Of a DNA stretch of 64,000 nt, positions 1,573-49,054 are shown one piece after another (positions within the stretch are counted from its first letter, which is position 1; the number at the start of each line of letters is the position of its first letter). Below the pieces are notes generated by a model, which made no database searches, was not told the origin of the DNA, and worked only from the letters and a program-made list of their open reading frames with translations. The position numbers and the translations under genes were made by a program. Source of the stretch: Atopobium massiliense (lineage in GTDB: Bacteria > Actinomycetota > Coriobacteriia > Coriobacteriales > Atopobiaceae); assembly GCA_900343135.1 (NCBI GenBank), contig OPYK01000001.1, positions 186,001-250,000 on the forward strand. Direction: 5' to 3'.

Positions 1573-2316
1573 TTACACCTTAAGCAACTTCACAAGATGA
1601 ACACGTGTGCCACGATGACATACACGCTTGGTGATAGAAACTTCATCAACCAAAATACGCATAAGCTGAATACCACGACCGCGCTCGGCATAGCTATGCT
1701 CCGGTGCAGACGGCGCGGTTTGTGCATTATCCAGGGCAAAACCCTGCCCACAATCGGATACATCCATCGCAACCCTATCGGCATACACAGAAATTTGCAC
1801 CATAGCGCAATCACTGTGCGCGTGGTCGGCAACGTTGCCCATAGCCTCACCTATGGCGAGCATCATATCAAAACGCATATCATCGCTGCATTGGATGTCG
1901 TTTAACACATCCTGCACACGCGCACGCGTGGCGGCTAAATCGCTGGTAGTTATTTCGACAACACGCTGCCATAGCGCTTCAGCATGAGTATCCACATCGG
2001 CAATTGCATGCGTGTGAAACGTACGCACCGAAATGTAATCAACCATACGACTAATTTTTAGCGCGCGAAGCACATGCGGATGCACTTCAACAAAACGCAC
2101 GGAGCCGCCGTATGCGCGCACGCTACGCACGGTGCACCACAGCATTGCCATGCCTGCAGAATCAACGTAGTGCACATCGCGCAAATTAAGTATAAGTGTA
2201 GGACAATTGGCGTTAATATAATCGCGAATAGTGTCGCGAATACGCGCAACTGTTGTAACATCGATATCAGACGGTATCGCTATAAGGCCAACATTCATTA
2301 TTGCATTCATATGCAT
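1573..2316 (-). CDS. STAS-HATPase fusion: anti-anti-sigma domain joined to an RsbW-like serine kinase
   Basis: A 247-residue cytoplasmic regulator. Residues ~8-110 form an STAS domain of the RsbV/SpoIIAA type, with the phosphorylatable serine in VHYVDSAGMAML. Residues ~115-247 form a GHKL ATPase of the RsbW/SpoIIAB type with all its motifs: the N-box GEAMGNVADHAH, the G1 box DCGQGF and the G2 box GRGIQLMRIL. In standard circuits these are two proteins: the kinase phosphorylates the STAS serine and, when the STAS protein is dephosphorylated, releases sigma. Here one chain could phosphorylate its own STAS domain or that of a partner. It lies 73 bp behind a PP2C phosphatase gene on the same strand, the expected opposing enzyme. 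ATG start at 2316 with AGGGA seven bases upstream. Family assignment is firm; the partner is inferred. Confidence 0.88.
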   Translation of the reverse strand: MHMNAIMNVGLIAIPSDIDVTTVARIRDTIRDYINANCPTLILNLRDVHYVDSAGMAMLWCTVRSVRAYGGSVRFVEVHPHVLRALKISRMVDYISVRTFHTHAIADVDTHAEALWQRVVEITTSDLAATRARVQDVLNDIQCSDDMRFDMMLAIGEAMGNVADHAHSDCAMVQISVYADRVAMDVSDCGQGFALDNAQTAPSAPEHSYAERGRGIQLMRILVDEVSITKRVCHRGTRVHLVKLLKV

Positions 2317-2389
2317 AGTTATTCCCTACCTGGCAACAAATATACATAACTTGCAGCATATACATAGCCTGTACCATGTTCGCTGCGCG

Positions 2390-4840
2390 CTACGCATCCT
2401 TCGCGCAATTGGGACAATGCTTTGAGTGCACGTTGTCAAAACGTAGCGCGACCATTGCCACATCATCGTCCAAATGCTGCGACGTAAACACATCAAGCCG
2501 ATGAAGCAGACGATGCAGCAAACCACGAAATCCGCAGCTACGCTCTTGTATAAGCGCGTCGATAAGACCGTCCTCACCAAAAAACGCACCATCCTGCGCC
2601 CGCGCCTCGGTAGTACCATCGGTATACAGCAGCAATATATCGCGCGTATCAAGCTCAATTACACCATTTTGGTAATGCATATCGTGAAACGCACCCACCA
2701 CACCTGATTGCACTGAAAGCGGAATAATATCGCTCGTATGTGCACGTATAAGCATCGCGGGCGGGTGTCCTGCCGAGCAATACGTAAGCGTTGCCTCGTT
2801 AAGATCGATGCAGCCCACAAACAACGTTGCAAAGGTTTCAAGCCTAGAAAATCCCAACAGAAAATCGTTGAGAAGCCCAACCATATGCGCCGGAGTAAGT
2901 CCCTGCCACGAATACGCCGCAAGCGCGGTTTTTACTGCAGCAGAAACCGACGCTGCTTCTACCCCTTTGCCCGAAACATCGCCCATAACAACACACGCTT
3001 TATTGCCTGGCAAACGCACCAAATCGTAAAAATCGCCACCAATACTTGCTGCTTGCGTTGCCGAAGAGTAAATTCCCTGCGCGCTTATGCCGTCTACCTG
3101 CTGAAGTTCATTTTTCATGCCCGTTTGCAGCGCCTGAGCGATATGTTCTTCTTGGCTATGCTTTGCCGACGTTTGAGAAATACTATAGATGTCTTGCGTA
3201 ATACGGCGTATAAACGCAAGCTCACTTGTGTCAAACAGCGGATCGTCAAGACTGCGCGCAAACACACACGCATAGCGTTTGTTGTTGATAGTGCCCATAT
3301 CGGCTATAACACCGCGGCAGGAAGGAAGCACGCTACATATGGCTTGTCCTATAGCGTCGTTTGCGCTAAATGGCTCAAGCAACACGCCATGATGCACAGA
3401 GCGCTCAAGACGTTGTAATTCAGGCGCAAACGCATATGTTGCCCCCGATGTGCACTCAAGCACGTAAGGCGTGGTTATAGCGCGCCCAGAGGGCGACGTA
3501 ATAGACTGCGCAGCTACAGAAGTTGCGGGTCGTGCCAGTGGCTTATCTGCGGCTGCGTCATGAGCACGAGCACTCACATCGCTCGCATTGCGCGGCCGAA
3601 TAAAATAAAGCTGACAGATAAGCATATTGGCTACAGCTACAGCCGCACGTTTAATTGCTGCAAAGGTAACAGTTTCGCGGTCGAGCAGCGTATCACGAAT
3701 GGTGGTAGCCGCCTGAAGTAGCTGATGCTCCTTGCGCGCGCGCATTGCCGAAAGCGCACCTACCAGCTGTACCGAAAGATACTGCACAACAGAATCGAGC
3801 AGGTCACTATCCTCTTTTATGGTGGTATGTGCCTTCTTCCACCCCACCTGCAACAGCGCAAGTGCAGTGTCTTCATACCAAATAGCAACACTCATGTAAC
3901 TTGTAAAAACGGGCACATATTGAGGCTCACAGGTATATATCTCATGTGTTTCTTCGTTGATAACATCGCGCGGGCAAGGCTTTTGTGTGCGCAAATCCTG
4001 CTGTGTAGGCGCAAGAACACGCAAACGCTGTGTTGCATGTGCTTCAAGCACCTTTGCACACAATTGTGAGCTTGTGGGAATACAGCGCGCAGGTGACGTG
4101 TGAGAAAGGCTCGCCGAGGCGCCCTTAAGATAAAATGCATCACCTTCGCGAATATAAAACAGTGTGCCGGATGCTTCCATAGTATCACCCAATAAGTCGA
4201 GAACGCGAGCACATAAGGTGTCAATATCCTGCGAATCAAGCGTACCTAATACAATTTTAAGCGTACCGGAAAGGCGTTTATTTGCGCGCGCAAGCTCATG
4301 TACAAGCTTGTTATAGGTGTCTTGTGAGCGCGCCTGTGCATCAAGATTACATGCCACAAGCATGTACAGCTCTGTTTCTGGATGCTCCCACGACGTGTTA
4401 GTTATGCGGTCGCAGACAACGCGCAGGTGCTGCGTTGCACCCTGTGCATCAGCGCAGGCAAGCGAAAGGGTTCCTGAGCTTCCAGTTTCGTCTATAAACG
4501 ACACAATAGACATATCGCGCACACGCAAGGTGGCAAACTGCTCACTTGGGTCGAATACGCTCGATCGTACGGGCGATAACACAAAGCGAATATCGCTATG
4601 TGCCACCGTGCCAACCTGCGCGTAAAACATATGCTCTGCAGCGTCGTTAGCAGCGTGAATATAGCCCGTTGCATCAAAAAGAAGCACGGCACTTGCACTT
4701 GTAGTAAACAGGCGACAAAACGCATACGCTTGGTGCGCCGTATCAAACAAGGGTGCTGATTGCGCAGGATGTGCCGGCGGTTCAGGATGCGCCGCGCGGG
4801 ATACGTTGGATATATCGTGTGACGGTTCTAAAGGATTCAT
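2390..4840 (-). CDS. SpoIIE/RsbU-type PP2C serine phosphatase with PAS and GAF sensor regions
   Basis: An 816-residue protein. Residues ~35-150 resemble a PAS sensor (TSASAVLLFDATGYIHAAND). Residues ~190-400 and ~415-570 look like two GAF-type modules joined by helical linkers. The last ~230 residues are a PP2C-like phosphatase with GGDFYD, GDVSGKG, AGHPPAM, LLYTDGTTEA and a terminal HLDDDVAMVAL, which supply the metal-binding aspartates. Such enzymes dephosphorylate STAS anti-anti-sigma proteins in response to a stress signal. The C-terminus ends in a small CPNC motif. I start at ATG 4840 rather than an upstream codon at 4921, because the PAS region follows naturally and the extra 27 residues look like translated leader. 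It probably forms an operon with the STAS-HATPase fusion downstream. No membrane span is seen, so any signal is probably intracellular. Confidence 0.9.
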   Translation of the reverse strand: MNPLEPSHDISNVSRAAHPEPPAHPAQSAPLFDTAHQAYAFCRLFTTSASAVLLFDATGYIHAANDAAEHMFYAQVGTVAHSDIRFVLSPVRSSVFDPSEQFATLRVRDMSIVSFIDETGSSGTLSLACADAQGATQHLRVVCDRITNTSWEHPETELYMLVACNLDAQARSQDTYNKLVHELARANKRLSGTLKIVLGTLDSQDIDTLCARVLDLLGDTMEASGTLFYIREGDAFYLKGASASLSHTSPARCIPTSSQLCAKVLEAHATQRLRVLAPTQQDLRTQKPCPRDVINEETHEIYTCEPQYVPVFTSYMSVAIWYEDTALALLQVGWKKAHTTIKEDSDLLDSVVQYLSVQLVGALSAMRARKEHQLLQAATTIRDTLLDRETVTFAAIKRAAVAVANMLICQLYFIRPRNASDVSARAHDAAADKPLARPATSVAAQSITSPSGRAITTPYVLECTSGATYAFAPELQRLERSVHHGVLLEPFSANDAIGQAICSVLPSCRGVIADMGTINNKRYACVFARSLDDPLFDTSELAFIRRITQDIYSISQTSAKHSQEEHIAQALQTGMKNELQQVDGISAQGIYSSATQAASIGGDFYDLVRLPGNKACVVMGDVSGKGVEAASVSAAVKTALAAYSWQGLTPAHMVGLLNDFLLGFSRLETFATLFVGCIDLNEATLTYCSAGHPPAMLIRAHTSDIIPLSVQSGVVGAFHDMHYQNGVIELDTRDILLLYTDGTTEARAQDGAFFGEDGLIDALIQERSCGFRGLLHRLLHRLDVFTSQHLDDDVAMVALRFDNVHSKHCPNCAKDA

Positions 4841-5046: not shown

Positions 5047-5137
5047 TGGTGTCGGAGGCGGGACTTGAACCCGCACGACCGTTTAGTTAGTCACTAGCAC
5101 CTCAAGCTAGCGCGTCTGCCTATTCCGCCACTCCGAC
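5047..5137 (-). tRNA. tRNA-Leu (anticodon GAG)
   Basis: A 91-nt class II tRNA with a long variable arm and encoded CCA. The anticodon loop CTTGAGG gives GAG for CUC/CUU. The acceptor stem GTCGGAG/CTCCGAC pairs perfectly. Confidence 0.94.
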
Positions 5138-47135: not shown

Positions 47136-47999
47136 CTACAGCGACGGGTCGAGCTTTTCTTGTAACTTGCGCAAGGTATTACGCAATAGGCGTGATACCT
47201 GTACCTGCGATATCTGCAACTTATCGGCAATTTCAACCTGAGTCATTCCATCAAGAAAACGCATGCGGATAATCTGTTGTTCACGCTCGGTGCAATTTTT
47301 AATAATTTCCTGAAGAACAAGCTTATCGTCGCAGGCTTCCAAATCGTCGTCTACCGAAGCATAGGTATCAAGCACGCTTGTTGCCGCTGAGCCGTCGTCG
47401 TTATCTACAGTGGGTACGTCGAGCGAAACAGAGCTATAGGCACGCGACGACTCCATTGCCTCAAGCACTTCATCAACACTAACATGAAGCTCACGGGCAA
47501 TTTCCTCAACAGATGGCGAATGCTGCAACTTTTCAGTAAGCATATCGGTTGCTTGGCTTACCTTGCTTGAAAGCTCCTGCAAGCGGCGCGGGACACGCAC
47601 CGACCAGCTCCTATCACGAAAATGGCGCTTAATTTCACCTAAAATGGTAGGCGTAGCAAAGGTAGTAAACTCCAGGCCCCTATCGATATCAAACCTGTCG
47701 ATTGCTTTAATAAGGCCAATTGTTGCCACCTGAATGAGGTCATCGAGCGACTCACCACGATTTTTAAATTTTGATGCAAGAAAACGTGCCAAATTAAGGT
47801 GATTGAGAACAAGCTGATTACGCGCTTCTTCATCGCCATGACGCTTAAACTTTATGAAAAGCTCACGGGTACGCTGCTTGTCCCATGCAGCCGTTTGCGA
47901 CGAACGCGCACTGCGCCTGCGTGCTAACGGTTGAGAATCCACCCTGGACGCTTCTTCCTTAGGAGTTTCTTCCTTGGGCGTTTCGTTATTCGTCGTCAT
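47136..47999 (-). CDS. sigB: RNA polymerase sigma factor, SigB/SigF/SigG family
   Basis: A 287-residue group 3 sigma-70 factor. After a charged, Lys/Glu-rich N-terminal ~45 residues come region 2 (NLARFLASKFKNRGESLDDL, then ATIGLIKAIDRFDIDRGLEF and FATPTILGEIKRHFRDRSW), region 3 (VPRRLQELSSKV; EIARELHVSVDEVLEAME) and region 4 (REQQIIRMRFLDGMTQVEIA, then a helix-turn-helix QISQVQVSRLLRNTLRKL). This matches the stress/sporulation class held by RsbW-type anti-sigma factors. ATG 47999 overlaps the anti-sigma-like gene by 14 bases, the classical rsbW-sigB coupling. As no sporulation genes are seen, a general stress role is most likely. Confidence 0.92.
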   Translation of the reverse strand: MTTNNETPKEETPKEEASRVDSQPLARRRSARSSQTAAWDKQRTRELFIKFKRHGDEEARNQLVLNHLNLARFLASKFKNRGESLDDLIQVATIGLIKAIDRFDIDRGLEFTTFATPTILGEIKRHFRDRSWSVRVPRRLQELSSKVSQATDMLTEKLQHSPSVEEIARELHVSVDEVLEAMESSRAYSSVSLDVPTVDNDDGSAATSVLDTYASVDDDLEACDDKLVLQEIIKNCTEREQQIIRMRFLDGMTQVEIADKLQISQVQVSRLLRNTLRKLQEKLDPSL

Positions 48000-48360
48000 A
48001 CACACGCCCAATCGTTTTTTCGATATGAAGCACGTTATCTTCTATAGAGAACGAATCACTTACCGCAGACAACATCATTTCAACAAGACGTATGTCTTCA
48101 TCGTCAATGGTATGAAACGGCTTTGAGCCAAGCGTTGCAGAAATAGACGCAACCGAATTGTTCAGCTCAAAACTAAGTGTGCACATATCCGCTGCCGTAG
48201 AACAGCTATACACGAATGCTTCTTCGGCTGCCATGCGCAAATCTTCTACGTCGTCTACACTCATATTGCACACAACAGCTAAGTTTGCGGCCATCATACG
48301 CACACAGCGGGCAAATTTTGGCTGCGCGGGAATAGTAAGGCTTATTGGTTTATTGTTCAT
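47986..48360 (-). CDS. degenerate RsbW-like anti-sigma factor
   Basis: A 124-residue protein in the position of rsbW, overlapping sigB. It keeps the RsbW opening (LTIPAQPKFARCVRMMAANL; VDDVEDLRMAAEEAFVYSCS), but the N-box Asn that holds Mg-ATP is Tyr and the His four further on is Thr. The G1 box (D-x-G-x-G) is absent, and the glycine-rich G2 box is replaced by DDEDIRLVEMMLSAV. It is also ~35 residues shorter than Bacillus RsbW. It can probably still bind sigma but not ATP, so it should not be a kinase. ATG 48360 overlaps the DUF948-like gene by 11 bases, giving a three-gene coupled operon. Confidence 0.8.
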   Translation of the reverse strand: MNNKPISLTIPAQPKFARCVRMMAANLAVVCNMSVDDVEDLRMAAEEAFVYSCSTAADMCTLSFELNNSVASISATLGSKPFHTIDDEDIRLVEMMLSAVSDSFSIEDNVLHIEKTIGRVYDDE

Positions 48361-49054
48361 GTTCGGTATCACCATCTTTGTTGGTTGCCGCAGGCTCGGG
48401 ATAGGTTATGTACGTGCGAGCAGCATACGTGGGCCTAGTTTGCGTGTGGGCGGACGTGTTGGGAGTTTCAGCAGTGCTACCTGCTACATGAGCAGCAGCA
48501 CCTGCATCGTGTGTGTCATCAACTTCGCGACCAGCAGCTTGACCAACAGCATAAGCAGGATTTCCGCCAGCAATCTGTCCGCGTGCTTCACCTGACGCGT
48601 CTTCATCGCTCACCCTATCAAACATCTGGCGCGATGTTTTGTATCCACTCATAAAATGTTGAGCAAAGGTTGAAGCGGTAGACGTTATGCCAGATATTGC
48701 CCCTTGTGCCACGCCCGCAACAGTATTTGCCGCACCTGCTGCCGAATCGGAAACCTCGCGCACATGCTCCAAAATAACTTCGGTTGTGTTAAGCTGCCCT
48801 TGGAGCTGCGCTACCGTTACATGGGTATCTTCGAGCAACGACGAAAGCTCCTTCACAGATGGCTGCAAATCGTCGAGCGTTGCATCAATTTTTTGAATAA
48901 CAGGCTCTACTTGATCCATTGTTTGGCAGGTAGTGTGCACAAACGTTTGCAAATCGCCGCGCACACGACGCAGCGTGATAACAAACTCAACAGTTGCAAC
49001 AAGCACACAAATGCACAATATAGCTGCCACGATATATGGTAGATAAGTTTCCAT
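48350..49054 (-). CDS. DUF948-like membrane-anchored coiled-coil protein
   Basis: A 234-residue protein with one N-terminal span (~residues 5-27, YIVAAILCICVLVATVEFVI) followed by a long helical region (30-125) with heptad-like LQTFVHTTCQ, IDATLDDLQPSVKELSSLL and VTVAQLQGQLNTTEV segments. This is the layout of DUF948/YtxG proteins, some of which are general stress proteins under SigB in Bacillus. The last ~80 residues are low-complexity Ala/Thr/Gly. It leads the operon whose next genes are the anti-sigma-like protein and sigma factor, which suggests co-regulation with, or autoregulation by, the sigma. Confidence 0.75.
   Translation of the reverse strand: METYLPYIVAAILCICVLVATVEFVITLRRVRGDLQTFVHTTCQTMDQVEPVIQKIDATLDDLQPSVKELSSLLEDTHVTVAQLQGQLNTTEVILEHVREVSDSAAGAANTVAGVAQGAISGITSTASTFAQHFMSGYKTSRQMFDRVSDEDASGEARGQIAGGNPAYAVGQAAGREVDDTHDAGAAAHVAGSTAETPNTSAHTQTRPTYAARTYITYPEPAATNKDGDTEHEQ

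Follow-up and report, generated by a model that had tools for sequence, protein, structure and literature searches.

The window, a stretch of 64,000 nucleotides, carries on its minus strand two separate loci whose products resemble the parts of a partner-switching system. In the first, a gene for a serine phosphatase is followed by one in which an STAS domain is joined to an RsbW-type kinase domain:

2390..4840, minus strand: SpoIIE/PP2C (PPM) serine phosphatase, RsbU/RsbP-like, 816 residues, ATG at 4840
1573..2316, minus strand: STAS-HATPase fusion, 247 residues, 73 bases past the PP2C stop
2008..2301, minus strand: STAS domain of the fusion, residues 6-103 (Pfam STAS, E 1.4e-14, above cut-off)
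1588..1944, minus strand: HATPase domain of the fusion, a serine kinase domain of RsbW type, residues 125-243 (HATPase_c_2, E 1e-18, above cut-off)
2158..2160, minus strand: Ser53 codon; this serine, in the DSxG motif, is the predicted site of phosphorylation in the fused STAS

The phosphatase matches Pfam SpoIIE (E 2.4e-44) and has the intact acidic residues expected of a PP2C/SpoIIE enzyme in a SigB/SigF-type partner-switching system, D603, D621, D741, D792 and D793 being kept in all 66 to 67 homologues that reach them; these were read from alignment columns in place of a GGDFYD pattern, which matched 32 of 67, its last residue varying. Its long N-terminal region gives weak matches to PAS_8 and GAF, under the Pfam cut-off. 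One more SpoIIE match in the genome, a weak one, belongs to another PPM phosphatase. In the fusion, D52-S53-x-G55 of the STAS half is invariant in all 68 homologues, as is each kinase motif of the other half (N box E157/N161/H165, G1 D188-x-G190-x-G192 and G2 G213-R214-G215), which provides the intact RsbW-type kinase of such a system; Arg131, early in the HATPase domain, is also invariant. The fusion is the sole HATPase_c_2 match above cut-off in this genome and usually the only RsbW-type kinase in a genome. Of the order's 149 genomes 68 contain it, and in 66 of these the PP2C gene adjoins it on the same strand, so that the locus is not a product of chance. A stop codon and 73 bases keep the two genes apart, and the single chain of the Rv1364c type is not found here. 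A structure model of the fusion from its single sequence was discarded (pLDDT 36), and PADLOC returned no match for four proteins.

The SigB locus and its RsbW-like protein

The second locus consists of three overlapping genes:

47136..47999, minus strand: SigB/SigF-family sigma factor (NCBIfam SigBFG TIGR02980, 277.7 bits against a cut-off of 234.35)
47986..48360, minus strand: kinase-dead RsbW/UsfX-like protein, presumed anti-sigma factor, 124 residues, directly 5' of sigB
48350..49054, minus strand: DUF948-like protein, apparent operon partner (Pfam DUF948, E 2.9e-5, under cut-off)

The sigma factor thus passes the cut-off of its family model, as the target of a SigB/SigF-type switch should. 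The gene for the 124-residue protein, whose stop overlaps the SigB start by 14 bases, is the immediate 5' neighbour of sigB in 68 of 68 genomes, and its own start is overlapped by the end of the DUF948-like gene, which was beside it in all 33 loci with enough flank. NCBIfam RsbW models score far under cut-off for this protein and Pfam HATPase_c_2 is also under cut-off; a search of the PDB with its family profile gave a single match, RsbW 6m36 (E 3e-6). Its model (pLDDT 91) has the RsbW fold expected of an anti-sigma factor encoded next to its sigma, with 6m36 as the best fold match (Z 16.4), followed by M. tuberculosis UsfX in complex with RsfB (8ih8, Z 16.3), the RsbW domain of Rv1364c (3ke6, Z 14.0) and UsfX in complex with SigF (8jzt, Z 13.8). 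The kinase motifs are lost in all 68 homologues. The N-box Asn is replaced by Y, F, L, W or C (44, 17, 4, 2 and 1 of 68 respectively), while G1 and G2 are absent from the family, as judged by alignment column counts (n=68) that replaced loose N, G1 and G2 patterns matching 2, 2 and 1 of the 68 proteins. A bifunctional RsbW of the Bacillus type, an anti-sigma factor with kinase motifs of its own, is therefore not what this gene encodes; RsbW fold, lack of kinase motifs and a gene directly 5' of sigF/sigB are the features of the UsfX/RsbW1 type. Profile-profile comparison of this family with the fusion gave a weak result (probability 7). A weak match to the protein in one further genome (G065, E 0.003) was dropped as due to chance.

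Much of what an earlier note had read from the sequence alone thus stands: a PP2C phosphatase beside an STAS-HATPase fusion; an STAS serine and an intact kinase within that fusion; and a kinase-dead, anti-sigma-like gene overlapping sigB elsewhere.

Two STAS proteins as candidate antagonists

The same note had described the two genes of the first locus as a self-contained switch, a view that has to be abandoned since a separate, single-domain RsbV-like STAS gene is found elsewhere in the same genome (contig C10) and in all 69 genomes with either the fusion or SigB. It had also named a separate rsbV together with an intact rsbW as grounds for giving up its design, and here the answer is divided, for the rsbV is present while the genome holds no separate intact RsbW. 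The standalone gene lies next to a TatA-type gene in 65 of 69 genomes and its Y-I-D-S-T-G motif is invariant in all 69; strong matches were found in none of ten controls from family f2, two of which gave weak ones (E 4e-7 and 9e-6). The genome therefore offers two candidates for an STAS antagonist with a phosphorylatable serine, this residue being invariant in both families.

From the domain content, the conservation or loss of motifs, the gene neighbourhoods, the co-occurrence and the predicted fold of the kinase-dead protein we infer that the general stress response of these bacteria is probably governed by a switch split between proteins. We give an even chance to a specific form of this arrangement, partner switching that controls the SigB-type sigma factor, with two proteins sharing what RsbW does alone in Bacillus. 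The UsfX-like, kinase-dead product of the gene next to sigB would bind and silence SigB, which would be freed when the unphosphorylated standalone STAS binds the kinase-dead protein. The HATPase half of the fusion would act as a dedicated kinase, phosphorylating RsbV and so keeping SigB off, and would probably also phosphorylate the STAS joined to it; under stress the sensor-bearing PP2C would remove the phosphate and turn SigB on. The fused STAS would most likely work in cis: serving the kinase as an internal substrate, or imitating one, it would tune kinase activity or compete with RsbV. Alongside RsbV, it may also antagonize the anti-sigma factor.

A possible alternative, which we consider rather less than probable, follows the design of the earlier note. 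The kinase half would phosphorylate its own STAS, the stress-activated PP2C would reverse this, and the dephosphorylated fused STAS would capture the anti-sigma factor and free SigB, with the standalone STAS serving something else or, like RsfA of mycobacteria, acting as a second antagonist of minor weight that answers to particular signals. The invariant serine of the fused STAS is in keeping with such a role, as are two mycobacterial precedents: Rv1364c, which has kinase and STAS in one chain, is described as autophosphorylating and dephosphorylating its STAS serine (PMC10950880), and M. smegmatis RsfB is encoded beside the kinase RsbW2, the pair that a fusion would unite (PMC7693655). The canonical standalone RsbV in 69 of 69 genomes is nevertheless a strong rival for the part of captor, and it is somewhat more conserved (mean column identity 0.65 against 0.59 for the fused STAS). 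One genome (G020, an assembly 89% complete in 470 contigs) moreover has SigB, the anti-sigma factor and the standalone STAS without a fusion. A first STAS tree suggested that the standalone STAS is the orthologue of operon rsbV, an assignment dropped after a second tree and an AU test in which the fused STAS held together with outside operon rsbV was not rejected (p 0.455); either STAS may be the RsbV orthologue and the antagonist that frees SigB.

Co-occurrence of the two loci

The earlier note had proposed co-occurrence as a check on its design, and the two loci do co-occur strongly. A count over the 149 genomes of this order gives 67 with fusion as well as SigB, one with the fusion only, one with SigB only and 80 with neither (Fisher p 2e-40, a statistic that ignores kinship). 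The association rests on few independent events, as presence follows whole families (34 of 34 in f1, 31 of 31 in f10, 2 of 3 in f3, 1 of 1 in f7 and 0 of 80 in the others). The whole layout of fusion and PP2C in tandem, kinase-dead protein with SigB, and standalone STAS recurs in five of five genomes of another family of the class (f11). Trees place the kinases of the fusions with those encoded beside rsbV in other Actinomycetota (SH-aLRT 95) and the kinase-dead protein with sigma-adjacent f11 proteins (SH-aLRT 99). The two loci lie 45.6 kb apart in the window and 25 kb to 1.16 Mb apart over the 20 genomes with both on one contig, a range that led us to reject the 45 kb spacing as meaningful. 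A SigB-type promoter motif was not enriched upstream of the rsbV (69), anti-sigma (68) or PP2C (37 of 68 usable) genes, where a SigB consensus, which may not hold in this class, gave 0 strict matches and at most 3 loose ones, little or no better than shuffles. Any link of the PP2C-fusion locus to SigB is accordingly a presumed one, joining loci that are unlinked and without promoter enrichment.

Co-occurrence through shared ancestry only would be expected if the PP2C-fusion-RsbV module acted on some other target and SigB were set by other signals, a reading that we think unlikely. Besides the distances and the presence by whole families, one genome (G108, 98% complete in few contigs) speaks for it, since fusion, PP2C and RsbV are kept there without SigB or anti-sigma factor and the module seems to have another output. 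Against it, both halves are found in 67 of the 69 genomes with either and the same set recurs in f11; with an anti-sigma factor devoid of kinase motifs and the fusion usually the sole RsbW-type kinase, an RsbV-dependent switch would also have no other kinase. It is very improbable that the fusion is a full RsbW, binding SigB and phosphorylating RsbV, with the 124-residue protein as a decoy relieving it, as the RsbW1 homologue RsbW3 of M. smegmatis is described to act as antagonist (PMC7693655): the complete RsbW motifs and invariant Arg131 of the fusion would suit this, but the 124-residue gene, which overlaps sigB here, is on its 5' side in 68 of 68 genomes, the position of the true anti-sigma factor in M. 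smegmatis, and kinase-lacking proteins adjoining sigma genes occur across the phylum sample.

Comparison with known switches

The divided arrangement that we favour resembles the SigF switch of M. smegmatis (RsbW1 of UsfX type, RsbW2, RsfB and the PP2C RsfR), in which RsbW1 is described as binding SigF without kinase activity and RsbW2 as phosphorylating RsfB without binding SigF (PMC7693655), with a PP2C gene adjoining rsfB-rsbW2 (PMC7693655; PMC10950880). Both combine a kinase-negative anti-sigma factor encoded with the sigma, a separate kinase with a PP2C gene near it, and an STAS antagonist phosphorylated on serine, a modification we infer for the proteins studied here. In M. smegmatis, however, rsfB and rsbW2 are two genes, whereas here STAS and kinase form one chain, and a histidine kinase drives the receiver domain that its PP2C has in place of the long N-terminal region with weak PAS/GAF matches; the additional RsbV, in a tat-gene context, is a further difference. 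M. tuberculosis Rv1364c (PAS-PP2C-HATPase-STAS) likewise joins HATPase and STAS, its STAS serine being phosphorylated and dephosphorylated in cis (PMC10950880), and its RsbW domain matches the fusion profile (3ke6, E 1.4e-4), but here a gene of its own encodes the PP2C and the STAS precedes the HATPase. The RsbU/RsbP-RsbV-RsbW-SigB system of Bacillus subtilis would share the same four activities, and its RsbW gives the best anti-sigma fold match (6m36), although there one RsbW is both anti-sigma factor and kinase and here two proteins from unlinked loci would be.

The fused STAS could even be a covalent gate on the kinase, phosphorylated in cis, such that the kinase acts on RsbV only once the STAS is saturated or emptied by the PP2C. 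We regard this idea as doubtful; if true, one enzyme would couple cis and trans substrates and create a threshold or timer before SigB release, a control element of which we have seen no description for this family.

The division of anti-sigma factor and kinase between two proteins has already been shown in M. smegmatis (RsbW1/RsbW2, PMC7693655); what is new here is a fusion of STAS and kinase next to a PP2C, together with the layout of five proteins. No study of such a switch in Coriobacteriia was found in the literature searched, the broader matches, among those listed, being judged by title and the start of the abstract. The natural STAS-kinase fusion is a protein in which cis and trans phosphorylation could be compared. 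The findings list, in testable form, the parts of what is probably the general stress response of these anaerobes, and they suggest that the division of the two jobs of RsbW, known from mycobacteria, reaches across the phylum.

Gene layout, residue conservation and fold

The genes of interest in the window are, by coordinates and strand:

2390-4840, minus: SpoIIE/PP2C phosphatase gene
1573-2316, minus: STAS-HATPase fusion gene (247 residues), 73 bases beyond the PP2C gene
48350-49054, minus: DUF948-like gene, overlapping the start of the anti-sigma gene
47986-48360, minus: gene of the 124-residue protein, the presumed anti-sigma, overlapping the sigma gene
47136-47999, minus: sigma gene of the SigB/F/G subfamily, scoring above the curated cut-off

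Genes for tRNA-Cys and tRNA-Gly (1222-1410) and for tRNA-Leu (5047-5137) flank the PP2C-fusion locus on the same strand. The DUF948-like gene adjoins the anti-sigma gene in all 33 loci with enough flank, and is possibly part of the SigB operon.

Column counts across 68 fusions (one from the window, the other 67 from further genomes of the order) show that D52, S53 and G55 of the fused STAS are invariant, as are E157, N161, H165, D188, G190, G192, G213, R214 and G215 of the kinase half. The metal-binding acidic residues of the PP2C are intact in all of the 66 or 67 sequences. The 124-residue protein lacks the N-box Asn throughout its 68 homologues, where the position holds Y (44), F (17), L (4), W (2) or C (1); the G1 motif is deleted and the G2 motif lost, while A17, R18, R21, M22, A24, M43, A45, E47, F49 and D102 are invariant in 52 sequences.

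The profile of the 124-residue protein matches one distinct PDB sequence, Bacillus subtilis RsbW (6m36, E 3.2e-6), whose N-box Asn aligns opposite an aromatic residue. Its AlphaFold2 model (pLDDT 91, 60 sequences), also searched with Foldseek, superposes on RsbW (Z 16.4, rmsd 1.4 over 101), UsfX in the RsfB complex (8ih8; Z 16.3, rmsd 2.1 over 112), SpoIIAB from its complex with sigma-F (1l0o; Z 15.2, rmsd 2.3 over 119) and SigF-bound UsfX (8jzt; Z 13.8, rmsd 2.7 over 112). As modelled, the protein appears RsbW/UsfX-like by fold, a likeness that is no proof of binding. Most of its closest named relatives belong to Atopobiaceae, among them Olsenella, Atopobium, Lancefieldella and Parafannyhessea.

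Distribution and origin of the two loci

The fusion, a strong match to the 124-residue protein and SigB (counted at E < 1e-90) were each found in 68 of 149 genomes of the order; one additional weak match to the 124-residue protein was discounted as chance. Fusion and SigB occur together in 67 genomes, singly in two (fusion in G108, SigB in G020) and are both missing from 80, bearing out the co-occurrence of the two loci anticipated in the earlier note. Presence follows families (f1 34/34, f10 31/31, f3 2/3, f7 1/1, others 0/80), implying few independent events, so that a Fisher p for this co-occurrence overstates the case. In 66 of the 68 genomes the PP2C gene and the fusion are same-strand neighbours, the exceptions being G090, where the PP2C gene lies nearby on the other strand, and G050, where it is on another contig. 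A cation-efflux (CDF) transporter gene separates the two in some genomes, as read at three loci from two families (L163:3070-4071, L159:3002-3937 and L165:1153-2118; Pfam support for L163 only), a hint that metal ions may be the signal or the output. Two results speak against a link: fusion and SigB locus are 25 kb to 1.16 Mb apart in the 20 genomes where a single contig carries the two, and a search of upstream regions with a SigB consensus found no promoter motif linking the PP2C and rsbV loci to the SigB locus.

Among 396 sampled genomes of the phylum, stop-free full-length fusions also occur in five from family f11, which belongs to the same class; each of the five has PP2C in tandem with the fusion, the kinase-dead protein with SigB, and a standalone STAS. 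Beyond f11 the best profile matches are adjacent rsbV and rsbW genes, with a stop between STAS and HATPase. There too, most SigB-like sigma genes have a short kinase-lacking protein encoded directly 5'; the sigma search covered 25 genomes, 23 of which gave a match. In the HATPase tree, the kinase halves of fusions from the order and from f11 form one group that next joins six outside rsbV-adjacent kinases (SH-aLRT 95 each), which places the fusion HATPase with the kinase type. A second group (SH-aLRT 99) unites the kinase-dead proteins of the order and of f11, so the kinase-less anti-sigma dates back at least as far as the class sample reaches. A first STAS tree placed the standalone type with outside operon rsbV; in a second, holding the fused type there instead costs 1.6 log units and is not rejected (p-AU 0.455).

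A standalone RsbV-like STAS

The earlier note took the switch to be self-contained in two genes. Pfam STAS, searched across the whole genome (assembly of 1.55 Mb, 16 contigs, 95.5% complete), matches in two places: the fusion and, elsewhere on contig C10, a single-domain protein of 105 residues, which that reading had overlooked. The reading would have been at odds with a separate rsbV and an intact rsbW serving SigB; the genome has this separate RsbV-like gene and no separate intact rsbW, the fusion alone matching HATPase_c_2 above the cut-off. The fusion is likewise the sole HATPase_c_2 match at E < 1e-7 in most of 69 genomes searched; some have more than one (seven in G120, five in G108) and G020 has none. 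Besides fusion, PP2C and RsbV, G108 (L166) encodes several more proteins of the SpoIIE, STAS and HATPase types.

The standalone STAS is present in all 69 genomes with fusion or SigB, its DSTG Ser invariant (69/69); among ten control genomes of family f2 there were no strong matches and two weak ones. On C10 its gene is flanked by genes for a TPR protein and a TatA-type protein (L005:371-2572), and this TPR-rsbV-tatA neighbourhood is conserved, a TatA-like gene adjoining in 65 of 69 loci and in all 30 with a long flank. In f11 a second STAS frame lies adjacent on the opposite strand at all five loci (L387, L393, L395, L396 and L403).

A proposed partner-switching scheme and its precedents

Passages of PMC7693655 and PMC10950880 describe M. 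smegmatis RsbW1, encoded with sigF, as an anti-sigma without kinase activity, RsbW2 as phosphorylating RsfB with no binding to SigF, and the PP2C RsfR as dephosphorylating RsfB. By analogy, the 124-residue protein would act as RsbW1, the anti-sigma of SigB, with the HATPase half of the fusion as RsbW2 and the PP2C as RsfR, presumably the kinase and phosphatase of an RsfB-type STAS. Either the standalone or the fused STAS, or both, could take the place of RsfB. We favour the standalone STAS on the evidence of two genomes: it is retained both in G108, which keeps the fusion kinase and phosphatase and in which SigB and anti-sigma were not found, and in G020, which keeps SigB and anti-sigma and in which the fusion was not found, but whose assembly, in 470 contigs, reaches 89% completeness. 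Such retention is expected of a piece shuttling between the modules. If the standalone STAS takes this role, the fused STAS may be a cis substrate or a regulator.

A division between anti-sigma and kinase is already known from M. smegmatis, and in Rv1364c a single chain already carries PP2C, kinase and STAS. In a 2025 article on RsbU-type phosphatases (PMC12143880), sensor-PP2C proteins with PAS and GAF, including Rv1364c, are named as initiators of the general stress response, which fits the role assigned to the PP2C here. A term search of a review of STAS-only proteins (PMC8256260) returned neither 'fusion' nor 'fused'. Searches of open-access papers, judged from their listings, turned up no account of a kinase fusion with STAS first that lies next to a PP2C and is accompanied by a separate RsbV, and against those papers the arrangement is apparently new. 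G108 suggests that the kinase-phosphatase-RsbV module is able to exist without SigB, and the module may therefore have other outputs.
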